Origin: Phycisphaeraceae bacterium
Lineage (GTDB): Bacteria; Planctomycetota; Phycisphaerae; Phycisphaerales; UBA1924
Direction: 5' to 3'
Assembly (NCBI GenBank): GCA_021297895.1
Contig: JAJTHN010000005.1
Span: 1-64,000, forward strand
Length of the DNA: 64,000 nt
Made by a program: the position numbers and the translations under genes. Shown here piece by piece: positions 19,408-28,052 of this stretch (the first letter of the stretch is position 1; the number at the start of each line of letters is the position of its first letter). The notes beneath the pieces were generated by a model. That model did not search any database. It was given only the letters and a program-made list of their open reading frames with translations, and was not told where the DNA came from.

Positions 19408-21474
19408 TCAGGCCGTCGCGGGGGTCAGGCGCATGCTGGCCTCGCGCTTGACGGGGGCCTGGGCCTGCGCCTGGGCGATGGCGGCGTCCTGCTCGGCGTA
19501 GGCCTCGCCGAAGCGGAAGAGCCGGAAGCTGTTGAGCACGACGACGATGTCGCCCAGGAAGTGGAAGACCAGTGCGCCGATGATCTCGATGCGTCCCGTG
19601 GCCGCGAGGGCAAGACCCACGACGGCGACGATCACGCTGATGGCGATGTTCTGCGTGATGATCGAGCGGTTCATCCGGCTGAGTTCGATCATGAAGGGGA
19701 TGCGGGAGAGTTCGTCGTTCATCAGAGCGACGCCGGCGGAGTTGGTCGCGATGTCGCTGCCGCCGAGGCCCATGGCCACGCCGACATCCGCCGCGGCGAG
19801 CGACGGGCCGTCGTTGATGCCGTCGCCGACCATGAGCGTGCGGCGGCCGGCGCGGGAGAGGCCCAGGACCTGCTCGTGCTTCTCGGCCGGGAGGCACTCG
19901 GCCTCGACGGTGTCCGCGCCGACGGTCTGGCCGACGCGCTGGGCGACGCTGAGGCGGTCGCCGGTGAAGATGCTTACGCGCTTGACGCCGAGCGTGCGGA
20001 GCTGATCGATCACGCCGCGAACGTTCGTGCGGATGCGGTCCTCGAGGCCGACGACGCCGAGATACTTGCCGTCGCGAGCGACGTGCACGCCGGTCATGCC
20101 CTCGATGCGGGCGCTGCAGGTGTCCATCTCGGCCTTGATGTCGGGGAACTGCTCGGCGAGCCATGAGCCGCGGCCGACGTGGAGGGTGCCCATGCTGGTG
20201 ATGGCCTTGACGCCGCGGCCGTGGATTTCTTCGAACGAGCCGCCGCCATCGGGCGTGATGCGTGCCGCGGCGGCGGTGGCCAGGATGCTGCGTGCCAGCG
20301 GGTGGTTGCTCTGCTGCTCGCCCGATGCGGCGGCGGCGAGCAGGTCCGCGCCGTCGACGCCGGTCGCGGGCGCCAGGCGGGCCACGGCGAACTTGCCGGT
20401 GGTGATGGTGCCGGTCTTGTCGAAGATCACGGTGTCCACATCGCCCGCGGCCTCAAGGAAGCGGGCTTCCTTGATCATGACGCCCAGCCGGGCCGCGGCG
20501 GCGAAGGCCGCGACCAGCGCCGTGGGCGAACTGAGCAGCAGCGCCGTGGGGCACGCGACAAAGAGCACGGTGATGGCTCGCTCAAGGGCGATTTCCTGCG
20601 GGCTGAGGAACCAGGTCAGCGCCGCCAGCGAGATGACCACGGGCACGTAGAAGCGGGCGACCTGCTCGATGAGCAGCTGCCGCGGCGTGCGTGCGCGGTT
20701 CGCGGCGGAGATCAGTTGCGTGACCTTGCCGATGGTTGTGTCCTCGCCGACCTGCGTGACGCGGATATCGATCGCGCCGGAGAGGTTGGTGGTGCCGGCG
20801 TAAACCTGATCGCCGACGTTGACCTCATGAGGCATGGCCTCGCCGGTGAGGCTGGCCTGATCGAGGGTGGAACGGCCGCTGACGATGATGCCGTCGATGG
20901 GCAGGTTCTCGCCCGCGCGGACACGGACGATGTCGTTGACCTTGACGGTGTTGAGCGCGACTTCGCTCTCGCTGCCGTCGCGGACAACGCGGGCGATGTT
21001 GGGCGTAAGGCGGACGAGCTGCTCGATGATGCGCTTGGCGCTGAAGGCCGTGCGGCGAAGAACCTGAGCGGCCAGCAGCAGCACCAGGCTGACCCAGCCC
21101 GCGGTCTCGTACTCCTGCGTGGCGAAGCAGCCCAGGATGGCCAGTGCGGCCAGCGAGTGCTCGCGCGGGAAGCCGTCGCGCAATTCGCGGAAGGAATCGA
21201 CAAAGAACTTGAAGCTCAGCAGGACCGCGGCGATGAAGGCGACGACCATGACCGTCGCCGGGCTGATCGCGCCCGGGAAGACCCAGTCGGCTGCCCGGCA
21301 GGCGATGAGCAGCATGCCGCCGACAAGGTACAGCACGATCATGGACTCGCTCTGCTGTTCCTCGGCGGAGCAGCAGGCTTCCATGGGCTTGTCGCCGTGG
21401 TCGTGGTGATGATGGTGACCGTGGCTGTGGTCGTGCGAGTGATCGTGCGAGTGGTCGTGGCTGTGGCCGGCCAT
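19408..21474 (-). CDS. Heavy-metal P1B-type ATPase, CPT motif, His-rich N-terminus
   Basis: A 688-residue metal-exporting P-type ATPase of the inner membrane. Residues 1-28 are a His/Asp-rich metal-binding tail (HSHDHSHDHSHGHHHHHDHG) in place of an HMA domain, followed by ACCSAEE. The actuator motif LTGEAMPHE, phosphorylation site VIFDKTGTITTG, HP motif SNHPLA and hinge GDGINDGPSLAAADVG are all present. The metal-translocating motif in TM6 is CPT (VACPTALLLSSPTALVAA, near residue 307), where Cu and Zn/Cd pumps have CPC. The His-rich tail favours Zn, Co or Ni, but the substrate cannot be fixed from sequence. A terminator follows. Confidence 0.9.
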   Translation of the reverse strand: MAGHSHDHSHDHSHDHSHGHHHHHDHGDKPMEACCSAEEQQSESMIVLYLVGGMLLIACRAADWVFPGAISPATVMVVAFIAAVLLSFKFFVDSFRELRDGFPREHSLAALAILGCFATQEYETAGWVSLVLLLAAQVLRRTAFSAKRIIEQLVRLTPNIARVVRDGSESEVALNTVKVNDIVRVRAGENLPIDGIIVSGRSTLDQASLTGEAMPHEVNVGDQVYAGTTNLSGAIDIRVTQVGEDTTIGKVTQLISAANRARTPRQLLIEQVARFYVPVVISLAALTWFLSPQEIALERAITVLFVACPTALLLSSPTALVAAFAAAARLGVMIKEARFLEAAGDVDTVIFDKTGTITTGKFAVARLAPATGVDGADLLAAAASGEQQSNHPLARSILATAAAARITPDGGGSFEEIHGRGVKAITSMGTLHVGRGSWLAEQFPDIKAEMDTCSARIEGMTGVHVARDGKYLGVVGLEDRIRTNVRGVIDQLRTLGVKRVSIFTGDRLSVAQRVGQTVGADTVEAECLPAEKHEQVLGLSRAGRRTLMVGDGINDGPSLAAADVGVAMGLGGSDIATNSAGVALMNDELSRIPFMIELSRMNRSIITQNIAISVIVAVVGLALAATGRIEIIGALVFHFLGDIVVVLNSFRLFRFGEAYAEQDAAIAQAQAQAPVKREASMRLTPATA

Positions 21475-23282: not shown

Positions 23283-23310
23283 TTGCGGGCACGATCTGTA
23301 GTGGTATGCT
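23283..23310 (+). promoter_or_regulatory. Possible sigma-70 promoter for dcd
   Basis: TTGCGG, 16 bp, TATGCT. It would place transcription start near 23317 and leave a leader of about 100 nt before dcd. Matches are imperfect and unsupported by other data. Confidence 0.3.
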
Positions 23311-23414
23311 CATCCCCCGCGGAGTCGTCCGCCGATGAGAATCTGAGTCGTCCGATCCCCTGTCAGATCCCTGTGAGTTGAGATCCTCTTGGCCCCAGAA
23401 AGAGGGATGTTCTT

Positions 23415-23987
23415 ATGCCCGTACTGTGCGACACGCAGATCCGCGACCTGGTGACGATCGAGCCGTTCGAGGCGGGTGGGAAGCGTTCGGGTAGGATTTC
23501 GTACGGAGTGTCGTCGTACGGGTACGACATTCGGGTGGGGCCGCGGTTCAAGATTTTCACGCCGACGCCGAGGTCGGGTGGTGTGACGATCGTGGATCCG
23601 AAGGCGTTCGACGATGACTTGTTCGTGGAGATTGATTGCGAGAAGGCTGGTCGGGACCACGTGATCATCCCGCCGAACAGCTTTGCGTTGTGCGAGACGG
23701 TGGAGACGATCGAGGTGCCGCGGGACATTCTGGTGATCTGCGTGGGCAAGAGCACGTACGCGCGGTGCGGGCTGGTGCTGAACGTGACGCCGCTGGAGCC
23801 AGAGTGGCGCGGGAAGGTGACGCTGGAGATCAGCAACACGACGCCGCTGCCGGCGAAGGTCTACGCCAACGAGGGGATCGGGCAGTTGATTTTCTTGAAG
23901 GCGGATGTGGTGTGCGCGGTGAGTTACGCGGACAAGGGCGGGAAGTATCAGGATCAGACGGGGTTGACGCTGCCGAAGGTGGATTGA
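23415..23987 (+). CDS. dcd: dCTP deaminase
   Basis: A 190-residue cytoplasmic enzyme that deaminates dCTP to dUTP, the precursor of dTMP. The trimeric-dUTPase-like fold is evident: [57 protein letters not shown] (with the catalytic Glu in the PLEPEW motif) and [19 protein letters not shown]. Whether it is mono- or bifunctional (Dcd-Dut) cannot be read here. The ribonucleotide reductase gene lies 555 bp downstream on the same strand, separated by an IVP-type insertion, so the two form a deoxynucleotide cluster. Confidence 0.95.
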
Positions 23988-23992
23988 GGACA

Positions 23993-24028
23993 GGCCATCG
24001 GCTTTGGGCCATCGGCCATTGGGTCGAC
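23993..24028 (+). repeat. Left inverted repeat of IVP element
   Basis: Starts 6 bp after the dcd stop. Its reverse complement aligns with 24458-24488: a 4-bp outer match (gtcg), a 5-bp insertion, then 25 of 27 identical bases built on the motif gccatcggcc. Confidence 0.75.
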
Positions 24029-24064
24029 GACTTGGTGGCGTGTGTCGCGTGGAGGTTGGCGTGC

Positions 24065-24457
24065 GTGGGCGAGGCGATTCGGTCATTTCGGGATCTCCGG
24101 GTCTGGAGAAGCGCATTCGCCATCGGGTTGTAGGTTCACGAGCTCTCGGCGAGGTTCCCGTCCGAGGAGCGGTTCGGGCTTGCTGCCCAGATTCGACGCG
24201 CTTCGGTAGGCGTGGCGAGCAACATCGCAGAGGGTTTTGGTCGAGGGAGCAGAGCGGATTATCTGAGGTTCACAAGAATCGCTCGGGGCTCGCTCTACGA
24301 GGTGGAAACGCAGTTGGAATTTGCCAGAGCGTTCGGGTACTTGGACATGTCGGCCGGTGAGGAGCTGGAGCAGATGATTCTGGAGTGCAACATGATGCTT
24401 GCGGGTCTGATTCGCAAGCTCGAGTTGGCACCGATGGATAAGTCGCAGGAATTCTGA
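24065..24457 (+). pseudogene. Four-helix-bundle (23S rRNA IVP family) protein, amber-interrupted
   Basis: Member of the four-helix-bundle family first seen in intervening sequences of 23S rRNA genes; the role is unknown, though basic surface residues suggest RNA binding. From GTG 24065 (GGAGG 9 bp upstream) the frame reads RSFRDLRVWRSAFAIGL, then TAG at 24131-24133, then in the same frame VHELSARFPSEERFGLAAQI and VGVASNIAEGFGRGS, RIARGSLYEVETQLEFAR. All family blocks (F-x-D-L-x-V-W; FP-x-E-E; SNIAEG; GSL-x-E) are in place, about 130 residues. A shorter product from GTG 24212 (81 aa) could still be made. It is bounded by inverted repeats. Confidence 0.75.
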
Positions 24458-24488
24458 GTCGATGGCCGATGGCCCAATGCCGGTGGCC
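24458..24488 (+). repeat. Right inverted repeat of IVP element
   Basis: Directly follows the stop of the four-helix-bundle frame and pairs with 23993-24028 (25 of 27 bases after a 5-bp bulge). The two arms would bring the ends of a 496-bp RNA together. Confidence 0.75.
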
Positions 24489-24542
24489 AGGTTTGAAGCG
24501 TGATTCGGTTCGAGTCGAAGCAATCAACCGCAGGAATCGCCC

Positions 24543-27500
24543 ATGAAGATCAATCGCAAGTTCACGACCGCCGGGAAGGATCCGTTCGCCACTGTGGGCT
24601 GGACCAAGCGTTCGAGCAAGATCACGAACCCGGACGGGACGATCGTGTTCAAGCTCGATGACGCGGAGGTTCCGGAGACGTGGAGCCAGCTCGCGACGGA
24701 CATCATGGTGAGCAAGTACTTCCGCAAGGCGGGTGTGCCGCAGGCGGATGGGACGATGGGCGGCGAGAAGTCGGCCCGGCAGGTGATTCATCGTCTGGCC
24801 GGGTGCTGGCGTCACTGGGGCGAGAAGTACGGGTACTTCGACTCGGCGTCGGATGCGCAGGCGTTCTACGACGAACTGGCGTACATGCTCACGCACCAGG
24901 TGGCGGCGCCGAACTCGCCGCAGTGGTTCAACACGGGGTTGAACTTTGCGTACGGGATCACGGGTCCGGCGCAGGGGCACTTCATCGCGGATTCCAAGAC
25001 GGGCGCGGTGAGCCTGGCCAAGGACGCGTACACGCATCCGCAGCCGCACGCGTGCTTCATTCAGAGTGTTGATGACGACCTGGTGAACCCGGGTGGGATC
25101 ATGGATCTGTGGACGCGCGAGGCCCGGCTGTTCAAGTACGGGTCGGGCACGGGGACGAACTTCTCGCGTTTGCGCGGTGAGAACGAGCACCTGTCCGGCG
25201 GCGGCAAGAGCTCGGGGCTGATGAGCTGGCTGCGGATCGGCGACCGTGCCGCGGCGGCGATCAAGAGCGGCGGCACGACGCGTCGCGCGGCGAAGATGGT
25301 CTGCCTGGACATGGATCATCCGGACATCGAGCAGTTCATCAACTGGAAGGTGCGCGAGGAGATCAAGGTTCAGGCGATGGTCGAGGGTCTGAAGGTCATC
25401 CGCGACCGCAAGGGCAACGCGGGCGACACCGAGACGATCGGGCAGACGGCGGACCGTCTGGGCCTGAAGCTCGACTATGACTTCAACGGCGAGGCGTACG
25501 CGACGGTTGCGGGGCAGAACAGCAACAACTCCGTGCGGATTCCCGATGAGTTCTTCGACACGCTGGATGCGGGCGGGGAGTGGAAGACGACCAGCCGCAT
25601 CGGCGGGAAGGTCTCGCGGGTGTTCAAGGCGGGCAAGCTGTGGGACGACATCGCGTACGCCGCGTGGCGGTGCGCGGACCCGGGTGTGCAGTACGACACG
25701 ACGATCAACGCGTGGCACACGTGCCCGAGCGCGGGCCGGATCAACGCGAGCAACCCGTGCAGCGAGTACATGTTCTTGGACAACACGGCGTGCAATCTGG
25801 CGTCGATCAACCTGATCACGCTGTACGACTCCAAGACGCGGGAGTTCAACGTCGAGCTGTACGAGCACGCGATCGATCTGTGGACGATCGTGCTGGAGAT
25901 CAGCGTGCTGATGGCCGCGTTCCCGAGCGAGGAGATCGCGCGGCTGAGCTGGCGGTACCGCACGCTGGGCCTTGGGTACGCGAACCTGGGCGCGATGCTG
26001 ATGCAGGCGGGCATCGCGTACGACAGCGAGGAGGCGCGGGCGATGGCCGGCAGCCTCAGCGCGATCCTGACGGGCCGGAGCTACCGCATGTCGGCGCTGA
26101 TGGCCAAGGAGCACGGGCCGTTCGCGGGCTTTGCGGATGATCGCGAGAACATGCTGCGTGTGATCCGCAACCACCGTCTCGCGGCGATGGGCACGGCTCG
26201 GACGAGCGCCAAGTACGAGAACCTGCGGATCCGGCCGGTGCCGATCGATCACGGTGTGATCCACTCGGGCAAGGTGCTGGTCAAGAACTGCCGCGAGATT
26301 CTCGAGCACGCGATCAAGAGCTGGGACGATGCGCTGGAACTGGGCATCCAGTACGGTTATCGCAACGCCCAGACGACGGTCATCGCGCCGACGGGCACGA
26401 TCGGCCTGCTGATGGACTGCGACACGACGGGCGTCGAGCCCGACTTTGCGCTGGTGAAGTTCAAGAAGCTGGCCGGCGGCGGGTACTTCAAGATCGCCAA
26501 CGCGTCCGTGCGGCCTGCGCTCGAGGCGCTGGGCTACAGCGATGCGCAGGTGCGCGACATCATGGTGTACCTGCTCGGGTCGCTGAACCTGGATGCGGAG
26601 ATTCCCGGCAAGGGGCCCGGCGGCGAGGCGACGCTGCGTGAACTGCTGGTGGCTCGCGGGCTCAAGGCCGATGAGCTGGCCCGGATCAGCGATGCGCTGC
26701 CCGGTGTGTTCGAGCTGTCGTTCGCGTTCTCGTCCTGGGGTCTTGGTGATGACATCCTGCGTCGATGCGGGATCGACCCCGATGCGGCCAAGTCCGACCG
26801 CTCGTTCAACTTCCTCAAGTCGATCGGGTTGAGCCGTCAGCAGATCGATGCGCTGAATGACGTGATCTGCGGTCGGCAGACGCTCGAGGGTGCGCCGCAC
26901 CTCAAGGCCGCGGACCTGCCGGTGTTCGACTGCGCCAACAAGTGCGGCAAGTACGGGCAGCGGTTCATCGTGCCCGAGGGGCACATCCGGATGATGGCGG
27001 CGGTTCAGCCGTTCATCTCCGGGGCGATCAGCAAGACGATCAACCTGCCGGCGGAGGCGAACGTTGATGATGTCAAGAGCGCCTATCGCCTGTCGTGGGA
27101 ACTGGGCATCAAGGCCAACGCGCTGTACCGCGACGGCAGCAAGATGAGCCAGCCGCTGAGCACGACCAGCGACAGCGAGGACAAGGCCGACGCGAAGGCG
27201 GAGGCCAAGAGCGAGAAGAAGGCCGAGGTTGCGGCGCCCGCTCCGGTCGCGGTGCCCGAGCCGGTGGTGAAGGTCGTCGAGCGGCCGGTGCCGATGCGTC
27301 GGCGTCTGCCGGACACCAGGGCGAGCGTGACGCACAAGTTCAACGTCGCAGGCCACGAGGGCTATCTGACGGTCGGTCTGTACGAGGACGGGCGTCCGGG
27401 CGAGCTCTTCATCACGATGGCCAAGGAAGGCTCGACCATCGGCGGGCTCATGGACGCGATCGGAACGGCCACCAGCGTATCGCTGCAGTACGGCGTGCCG

Positions 27501-28052
27501 ATCGAGTCGCTGGTGCGCAAGTTCACGCATCAGCGCTTCGAGCCCGCGGGCATGACAACCAACCGCGACATCCCGTTCGCCAAGAGCCTGGTCGACTACA
27601 TCTTCCGCTGGATGGGCATGCAGTTCATCCCCGGGTACCGTGCGGCGAATATTCCGCAGCGGGAGACCGACGAGACGCAGACCTTCGACGTGGCGCGTGA
27701 TCTGGCGGTGCTCTCGGGCATCGACCCGGAGGATGCGCCGGGTGTCACGGGCGAGGCGGCGCGGGCCGTGGTCAGCGAGAGCAAGGAGCCCCGTCTCCCT
27801 TTCGGTGATGCGTCGGCGAAGGACTCGCCACCCGGCACCGCGCACGTGCACGTGCACCGCACGGTGACGGAGACGACCATCGATGTCGAGACCAGCGGCA
27901 AGGTGCGAGTAGCCAAGAGCGACAACATGCTGGCCATCGCGATGAAGAGCAGCGGCGACGGCCCGCCCTGCTCGGTGTGCGGCACCATCACCGTCCGCAA
28001 CGGCACGTGCCACAAGTGCGTGAACTGCGGCAACTCGATGGGATGCAGTTGA
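24543..28052 (+). CDS. nrdJ: Class II (adenosylcobalamin-dependent) ribonucleotide reductase
   Basis: A 1169-residue enzyme that reduces ribonucleotides to deoxyribonucleotides using coenzyme B12, so it needs no oxygen and no small subunit. Family blocks: APNSPQWFNTGLNFAYGI, KYGSGTGTNFSRLRG, ASNPCSEYMFLDNTACNLAS (catalytic region with Cys and Glu), and TVIAPTGTIGLLMDCDTTG. Residues about 880-930 are a Lys/Glu/Ala-rich linker. The C-terminus ends in a Cys-rich zinc-ribbon-like tail (PCSVCGTITV, CHKCVNCGNSMGC) holding the redox-active pairs. No cobalamin riboswitch was recognised in the short 5' region. It is followed by a clear terminator and preceded by dcd plus an IVP element. Confidence 0.95.
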   Translation: MKINRKFTTAGKDPFATVGWTKRSSKITNPDGTIVFKLDDAEVPETWSQLATDIMVSKYFRKAGVPQADGTMGGEKSARQVIHRLAGCWRHWGEKYGYFDSASDAQAFYDELAYMLTHQVAAPNSPQWFNTGLNFAYGITGPAQGHFIADSKTGAVSLAKDAYTHPQPHACFIQSVDDDLVNPGGIMDLWTREARLFKYGSGTGTNFSRLRGENEHLSGGGKSSGLMSWLRIGDRAAAAIKSGGTTRRAAKMVCLDMDHPDIEQFINWKVREEIKVQAMVEGLKVIRDRKGNAGDTETIGQTADRLGLKLDYDFNGEAYATVAGQNSNNSVRIPDEFFDTLDAGGEWKTTSRIGGKVSRVFKAGKLWDDIAYAAWRCADPGVQYDTTINAWHTCPSAGRINASNPCSEYMFLDNTACNLASINLITLYDSKTREFNVELYEHAIDLWTIVLEISVLMAAFPSEEIARLSWRYRTLGLGYANLGAMLMQAGIAYDSEEARAMAGSLSAILTGRSYRMSALMAKEHGPFAGFADDRENMLRVIRNHRLAAMGTARTSAKYENLRIRPVPIDHGVIHSGKVLVKNCREILEHAIKSWDDALELGIQYGYRNAQTTVIAPTGTIGLLMDCDTTGVEPDFALVKFKKLAGGGYFKIANASVRPALEALGYSDAQVRDIMVYLLGSLNLDAEIPGKGPGGEATLRELLVARGLKADELARISDALPGVFELSFAFSSWGLGDDILRRCGIDPDAAKSDRSFNFLKSIGLSRQQIDALNDVICGRQTLEGAPHLKAADLPVFDCANKCGKYGQRFIVPEGHIRMMAAVQPFISGAISKTINLPAEANVDDVKSAYRLSWELGIKANALYRDGSKMSQPLSTTSDSEDKADAKAEAKSEKKAEVAAPAPVAVPEPVVKVVERPVPMRRRLPDTRASVTHKFNVAGHEGYLTVGLYEDGRPGELFITMAKEGSTIGGLMDAIGTATSVSLQYGVPIESLVRKFTHQRFEPAGMTTNRDIPFAKSLVDYIFRWMGMQFIPGYRAANIPQRETDETQTFDVARDLAVLSGIDPEDAPGVTGEAARAVVSESKEPRLPFGDASAKDSPPGTAHVHVHRTVTETTIDVETSGKVRVAKSDNMLAIAMKSSGDGPPCSVCGTITVRNGTCHKCVNCGNSMGCS

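Follow-up and report, generated by a model that had tools for sequence, protein, structure and literature searches.

A probably decayed S23/IVP element between dcd and nrdJ, and the convergent tandem 7- and 8-mer arms of S23 genes in bacteria

The window analysed here, i.e., the whole stretch of 64,000 nucleotides of contig JAJTHN010000005.1 of a Phycisphaeraceae bacterium, carries between the genes dcd and nrdJ a frame of the S23/IVP family that is enclosed by two complementary arms. The features of the locus are the following.

23415 to 23987, forward strand: dcd (dCTP deaminase-like), upstream of the element (ORF; PF22769, E=5.4e-31)
23993 to 24019, forward strand: 5' arm, heptamers GGCCATC/GGCTTTG/GGCCATC/GGCCAT(T) (inverted repeat, best period 7)
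24065 to 24457, forward strand: IVP/S23 four-helix-bundle frame, broken by a TAG (PF05635, translation, TIGR02436)
24131 to 24133, forward strand: in-frame TAG near the N-terminal end of the IVP frame (profile match and translation)
24462 to 24488, reverse strand: 3' arm, inverted heptamers of the 5'-arm type (inverted repeat, period)
24543 to 28052, forward strand: nrdJ, class II (B12-dependent) ribonucleotide reductase, downstream (ORF; PF02867, PF08471)

A sequence-only reading of this DNA had described an IVP-type gene between inverted repeats, flanked by dcd and nrdJ. The flanking genes are as it named them: Pfam places the upstream ORF, whose stop ends at 23987, in the DCD family and the ORF starting at 24543 among the class II ribonucleotide reductases. 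The inverted repeats around the gene are real as well. They are 27 nt long, 442 nt apart and complementary at 25 of 27 positions (93%), with an alignment score of 44 against a maximum of 24 among 50 dinucleotide shuffles; by the figure given in that reading, extra bases past a bulge carry the pairing of the 5' arm to about 24028. Folded as RNA, the stretch has z = -5.5, and its two ends pair in the minimum-energy structure. Positions 23300 to 25000 gave no Rfam match at E<=0.1, and the element lies outside rRNA genes. Elsewhere in the window, a long ORF on the reverse strand (19408 to 21474) has a start rich in His and Asp and reads, by eye, like a metal-transporting P-type ATPase.

The family of the enclosed gene was correctly recognised; its integrity was not. 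PF05635 matches at 24089 to 24403 with one TAG inside, and the part after the TAG alone scores 101.7 bits against a curated cut-off of 33.8, which places the protein in the family; its TIGR02436 score is 103.9 against a cut-off of 24. Judging from the relatives that carry the gene at this site, the frame would start at GTG 24065. Since this frame is interrupted by the in-frame TAG, the window copy looks broken, and the complementary ends enclose no intact gene: the ORF that follows in the same frame starts at GTG 24212 and has 81 codons for amino acids.

Of 61 genomes, made up of the window's and those of 60 relatives, 41 had IVP genes, with 136 matches in total. We took 91 of these as a first set, made of the best-scoring matches and the second copy of the window's genome, and called arms from the best inverted alignment between the 250 bp before and the 250 bp after the IVP match, at a score of at least 28. 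Arms flanked 71 of the 91 loci, compared with 17 of 1187 control placements of the same geometry on the same loci (about 1.4%). Controls centred on other genes gave arms at 0 of 30 dcd loci and 1 of 24 carB fragments. In a second set, drawn from named genomes mostly of other phyla and consisting of the best 80 of 589 loci, arms were found at 62 of 80 loci and at 15 of 1103 control placements, and the armed loci among these best 80 include Acidobacteria, Bacteroidetes, Gammaproteobacteria, Chloroflexi and Verrucomicrobia. At least two second-set loci are not independent of the first set, because the arms of L242 are those of L033 and the arms of L298 are those of L049. By the alignment measure there were no arms at 20 of the 91 loci of the first set and at 18 of the best 80 of 589 in the second. 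The proposal that an IVP gene with paired ends is a recurring self-contained unit outside rRNA is thus supported in both sets.

Most arms consist of tandem 7-mers or 8-mers; the two of one locus match each other, and those of different loci differ. Among the 71 armed loci of the first set, the best period of the 5' arm is 7 in 44, 8 in 26 and 9 in one, and both arms have the same period in 69. An arm has about four units (medians of 4.4 at period 7 and 4.2 at period 8, the latter with quartiles of 2.8 to 5.4), and the elements have a median length of 472 bp (range 413 to 679). Their polarity is almost constant: on the coding strand, the 5' arm has more G than C in 65 loci, less in 2 and as much in 4. 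The 62 armed loci of the second set (from the best 80 of 589) follow the same lines, with period 7 in 40, 8 in 16 and another in 6, and with G exceeding C in 57 of the 5' arms and C exceeding G in one. When each upstream arm was compared with all 71 downstream arms, its best match was its own partner in 68 loci, and the mean arm score was 45.6 within a locus versus 9.8 between loci of one genome (170 comparisons). The search for the repeat that the sequence-only reading had called for therefore gave a divided answer. Repeats do occur at other IVP loci, where their absence had been named as a refutation, and flank most of them, but there is no fixed sequence, 20 of the 91 loci are armless by the alignment measure, and the constant 30-bp terminal repeat it had expected is ruled out by arms made of locus-specific tandem 7- or 8-mers, GGCCATC in the window. 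Very long arms were noted at L268, in Vreelandella sedimenti, which has more than 20 heptamers GTGAGTG/GTGAGTT per arm, about 165 bp on each side of its S23 gene.

The period of the arms follows the protein. We built a tree of the 87 first-set proteins (of 91) that were matched over at least 85 codons; it rests on few columns and leaves 35 of its 84 inner branches open. On this tree, the distribution of periods 7 and 8 requires 9 changes (n = 69 loci), versus a minimum of 16 and a mean of 20.6 in 300 shuffles. The signal weakens when each genome contributes a single locus (20 draws, 31 loci each): 4 to 8 changes were needed, fewer than the shuffle mean (9.2 to 10.8) in all 20 draws and fewer than in any of 100 shuffles in 10 of them. 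The similarity of the arms also increases with that of the proteins (rho 0.207 over 2262 cross-genome pairs, with a maximum of 0.116 in 300 permutations). Armless loci tend to cluster (10 changes, versus a shuffle minimum of 11 and a mean of 15.8). Five of them (L050, L051, L075, L079 and L080) make up one fork of the tree in which every member lacks arms, possibly a settled, non-mobile subfamily.

How often the site between dcd and nrdJ is occupied was surveyed at 30 loci, each from a different genome among the 33 in which dcd was matched, nrdJ being in view in 27. The IVP gene stands there, in the same place and orientation, in 7 of the 27 (G000, i.e., the window's genome, G018, G012, G003, G004, G014 and G010), each of another genus, the frame of G003 being broken. 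In the other 20 of 27, as the sequence-only reading had anticipated for some relatives, it is absent (tblastn, E<=1e-4), and the intervening gap can be as small as 43 or 53 bp. Aligned by eye and by script, the arms at this site are of the GGCATCAA type in 5 of 7 carriers and of GGCCATC in the window; G004 has none by the alignment measure. As the gene is found there in seven genera, including the window's, a fresh insertion is unlikely. Comparison of these sequences indicates that the element is probably old at dcd-nrdJ, or came there more than once.

Other sites give a partial view of occupied and empty copies. For two elements of another genus, L043 and L047, there are copies of the same operon without the element. 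The place of L047 holds 51 to 253 bp in 16 of 17 other rows and 648 bp in one, whereas that of L043 holds a variable stretch of 167 to 333 bp in 17 other rows and is not an untouched site; in each set, 2 of 20 loci had no readable junction, and certain copies were entered twice, once from either side, so that the distinct copies are fewer. In our reading, both elements would fit between a stop codon and the start or ribosome site of the next gene. Neither comparison showed a target-site duplication. L043 (G047:C83) and L047 (G059:C84) are two different S23 elements at two junctions of what seems to be one operon, which has many copies in one genus and, at one junction, a stretch variable in both length and sequence. 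The S23 elements of Dyella and Rhodanobacter (L290 and L319) share a junction too: by eye, it lies between accB-like and accC-like ends, and the elements end at the start codon.

The repeat units are also found away from S23 genes. The pattern (GGCCATC)2GG, with at most one mismatch, has 33 matches in the window's genome and 0 to 6 in each of the 60 relatives. The octamer of the G021 element, GAGCGACG, occurs 40 times in G021, 11 times in G008, whose own S23 arms (L049) are similar to it, and at most 4 times in any other genome. Units of the GGGAATC/GGGATTC type (at most two mismatches), searched in 12 genomes of named loci, number 62 in Dyella and 87 in Rhodanobacter. Among the best 80 of 589 loci, the S23 arms of these two are GGGAATA/GGGAATC and GGGATTC, respectively. 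Of the 35 in Niastella, most are GGCAATC, a unit that its own element L308 does not carry, and the other nine genomes have 0 to 7. The fourth unit gave a mixed result. The GGCATCAA type (at most two mismatches) is most frequent in G047 (40), G055 (37) and G043 (23): the element of G047 has other arms, and an IVP search up to E<=10 gave no match in G043 or G055, while the genomes with GGCATCAA in their dcd-site element have merely 2 to 12 matches. Hence, three of the four units tested are dispersed mainly in genomes whose own element carries the unit, a home-genome dispersal seen in G000, G021, Dyella and Rhodanobacter.

Reversed control patterns gave about zero matches in most genomes, the exceptions being 39 in G029, 157 in G064 and 18 in G002 alone. 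Taken on the other strand, the 18 in G002 resemble, in our reading, the AAGTTCCG arms of its element L041. As the reversed patterns are not always empty, dispersed 7- and 8-mers must be common and partly outside the units we assigned; the abundance in G029 (39) and G064 (157) points to further dispersed families of this kind.

Where dispersed arrays on opposite strands are neighbours, they share the orientation of the S23 arms. All 15 pairs within 600 bp (12 in Dyella, i.e., G061, and 3 in G021) are convergent; two of them are S23 elements, and the other 13 have 35 to 143 bp between the arms. G021 displays lone arrays together with four short pairs. The repeats are thus dispersed both singly and as convergent pairs in G021 and Dyella, and, judged by matches, in Rhodanobacter. 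In the window's genome, the sole such pair within 600 bp is the dcd-nrdJ element, the other arrays being alone. Array density was tried as a test of linkage and proved too weak: IVP-rich samples had weakly more arrays (8 in 352 kb) than IVP-free ones (2 in 316 kb), with one stretch per genome and 20 genomes each. Overall, the scattered units of several genomes suggest a little-noticed kind of mobile repeat.

Some arrays lie inside genes. The octamer arrays L192, L198, L201 and L203 fall within reading frames of G021 that a comparison with solved structures identifies as carB-, uvrB- and clpB-like, and within a frame of G008 that by eye is purL-like; a further array lies in a G021 gene that by eye is of the mqn type. 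The carB array falls in a loop of 89 residues in G021, versus 52 to 82 in the 7 of 24 relatives' loci where a motif search found the loop. Because the length of this loop varies in relatives anyway, we did not count the array as a clean insertion, and the idea of clean insertion into coding genes was dropped, uvrB and clpB having been set against solved structures alone.

The best solved match of the IVP profile, a close homologue, is XCC0516 of X. campestris (2gsc, E=4.3e-37), and the S23 homologue of this species is reported to be a pentamer (PMC4990558). Each S23 protein tested has PF05635 as its sole Pfam match. Pfam thus gives no recognised catalytic domain in these proteins and no RAYT (TnpA-REP) gene between the repeats, and PADLOC defence models returned no family for three S23 proteins at E<=0.01.

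The feature between dcd and nrdJ is best read as a decayed copy from a widespread class of elements that stand free but correspond to the rRNA intervening sequences (IVS). We favour, with fair though far from full confidence, the view that it is a decayed element of about 470 bp whose S23 protein recognised its own repeats and aided their copying in a manner akin to REPIN/RAYT. The unit would consist of a four-helix-bundle gene of the S23/IVP family with an array of about four tandem 7- or 8-mers on either side, the two arrays converging. The protein would recognise the period-matched repeats of its own element, its pentamer perhaps binding roughly one repeat unit per subunit; that four to five units suit a pentameric S23 is suggestive only. 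It would then aid the copying of the repeats, and of the gene that they enclose, to new places, and since S23 has no recognised catalytic domain, the copying would presumably use host enzymes. The IVS elements of rRNA would be units of this kind that had inserted in 23S rRNA, and the dcd-nrdJ gene would have been broken later in the window's genome.

The arms could instead serve to regulate the S23 gene, as an RNA or DNA structure involved in autoregulation, RNA stability or transcript ends. S23 would then be an ordinary RNA-binding regulator, inherited or transferred with its own hairpin, and the dispersed arrays would be a separate product of slippage. A regulatory role agrees with arms that closely bracket the ORF and are able to pair in RNA (z -5.5), with the presence of the gene at dcd-nrdJ in seven genera, and with a period that follows the protein, as one expects if S23 binds its own leader; the result for GGCATCAA, the fourth unit, also fits it better. 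However, regulation explains neither the home-genome dispersal of the arm unit, seen for three of the four units tested, nor the gene-less convergent hairpins of the same polarity, and we regard it as unlikely.

Alternatively, an unrelated transposase or reverse transcriptase of the host could recognise convergent tandem repeats and carry S23 elements and short hairpins along as MITE-like passengers, S23 being mere cargo. This would account for proteins that match PF05635 alone and have no catalytic domain, for a size and hairpin form resembling those of MITEs, and for the arrays of G043 and G055, where the S23 gene was not found. Yet the arm sequence changes between loci even within one genome (9.8 between loci versus 45.6 within), and a period that follows S23 phylogeny is not something that cargo would dictate, so that we find this account quite improbable. 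Finally, tandem heptamer arrays could pre-exist by replication slippage, and heptameric repeats are indeed over-represented in many bacteria (PMC4692102), with S23 genes accumulating between convergent arrays through recombination, but an arm is matched best by its own partner in 68 of 71 loci, the period is common to both arms in 69 of 71, and 7/8-mer arrays are so rare in the sampled DNA of the relatives (10 in 668 kb) that two matched convergent arrays about 470 bp apart are unlikely by chance, which makes this origin very improbable.

If S23 proteins do recognise and help to copy their own repeats, a broader proposal can be made, to which we give somewhat less than even credence: S23/IVP proteins might supply the repeat specificity of a mobile-repeat system found across bacteria. 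Each would read its own tandem 7- or 8-mer, with a period set by the protein lineage, and would cause arrays, hairpins and its own gene to spread, no nuclease being encoded. Much unexplained heptameric content of bacterial genomes (e.g., GGGAATC in xanthomonads) and the intervening sequences of rRNA would then be products of S23 systems. The rule of convergent tandem arms, with a period that follows the protein, joins a family known for decades whose function has had no explanation (PMC4990558) to bacterial heptameric repeats whose origin has so far gone unexplained. In the open-licence literature that we searched, we found no paper joining S23 genes to tandem 7/8-mers as a rule. Being family-wide, the arms offer S23 a likely substrate, and testing in laboratory strains is feasible.

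Several known systems resemble S23 elements in part. The likeness of the window S23 protein to Avd of diversity-generating retroelements is a distant sequence match (NF033474, 21.8 bits versus a cut-off of 80, E=1.8e-4). The layout of Avd loci probably differs from that of S23 loci. The TAACTGA heptamers of Beggiatoaceae and cyanobacteria, described as many intergenic tandem sets with no evident mechanism of spread (PMC4679880), are comparable to the tandem heptamers of S23 elements; the main text of that paper mentions neither S23 nor four helix nor intervening sequence. There are also the dispersed arrays of GGGAATC in Xanthomonas and GGGGA(C/T)T in Nostoc, treated as G-quadruplex repeats (PMC4692102); the Xanthomonas arrays clearly prefer four units and form convergent pairs in 70 and 75 cases. 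The S23 arms of Dyella and Rhodanobacter have the unit type of the Xanthomonas repeats, and it is from these two genera that we draw the link to S23, the main text of PMC4692102 making no mention of XCC0516, four-helix or intervening.

The IVS of the 23S rRNA of Coxiella burnetii is a unit of 428 to 444 nt with an S23p ORF and a 28-bp terminal stem, inserted in helix 45 and excised by RNase III; upstream of the ORF it has two or three tandem heptamers GACAGAT and a degenerate one (PMC4990558). Elements of the window type share with it an S23/IVP ORF between complementary ends. They differ in lying in intergenic regions and operon junctions, in having tandem arrays as both arms and in the dispersal of their units in the genome; the passages of PMC4990558 that we consulted do not report arrays as a family-wide feature.

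The REPIN/RAYT system provides another analogy. There, a gene is flanked by convergent short repeats that also occur genome-wide as singlets and short inverted pairs, and these repeats are specific to the home genome. S23 elements likewise combine a gene, convergent short repeats and, in several genomes, dispersal of the unit as singlets and inverted pairs. They differ from REPINs and their RAYT transposases (PMC3116915) in encoding a four-helix bundle without a recognised nuclease domain and in using tandem 7/8-mers instead of REPs, which are palindromic and have a conserved GTAG or CGTC head (PMC3733652). S23 elements would thus pair a gene with repeats as REPIN/RAYT does, but through a protein in which no enzyme domain is recognised.
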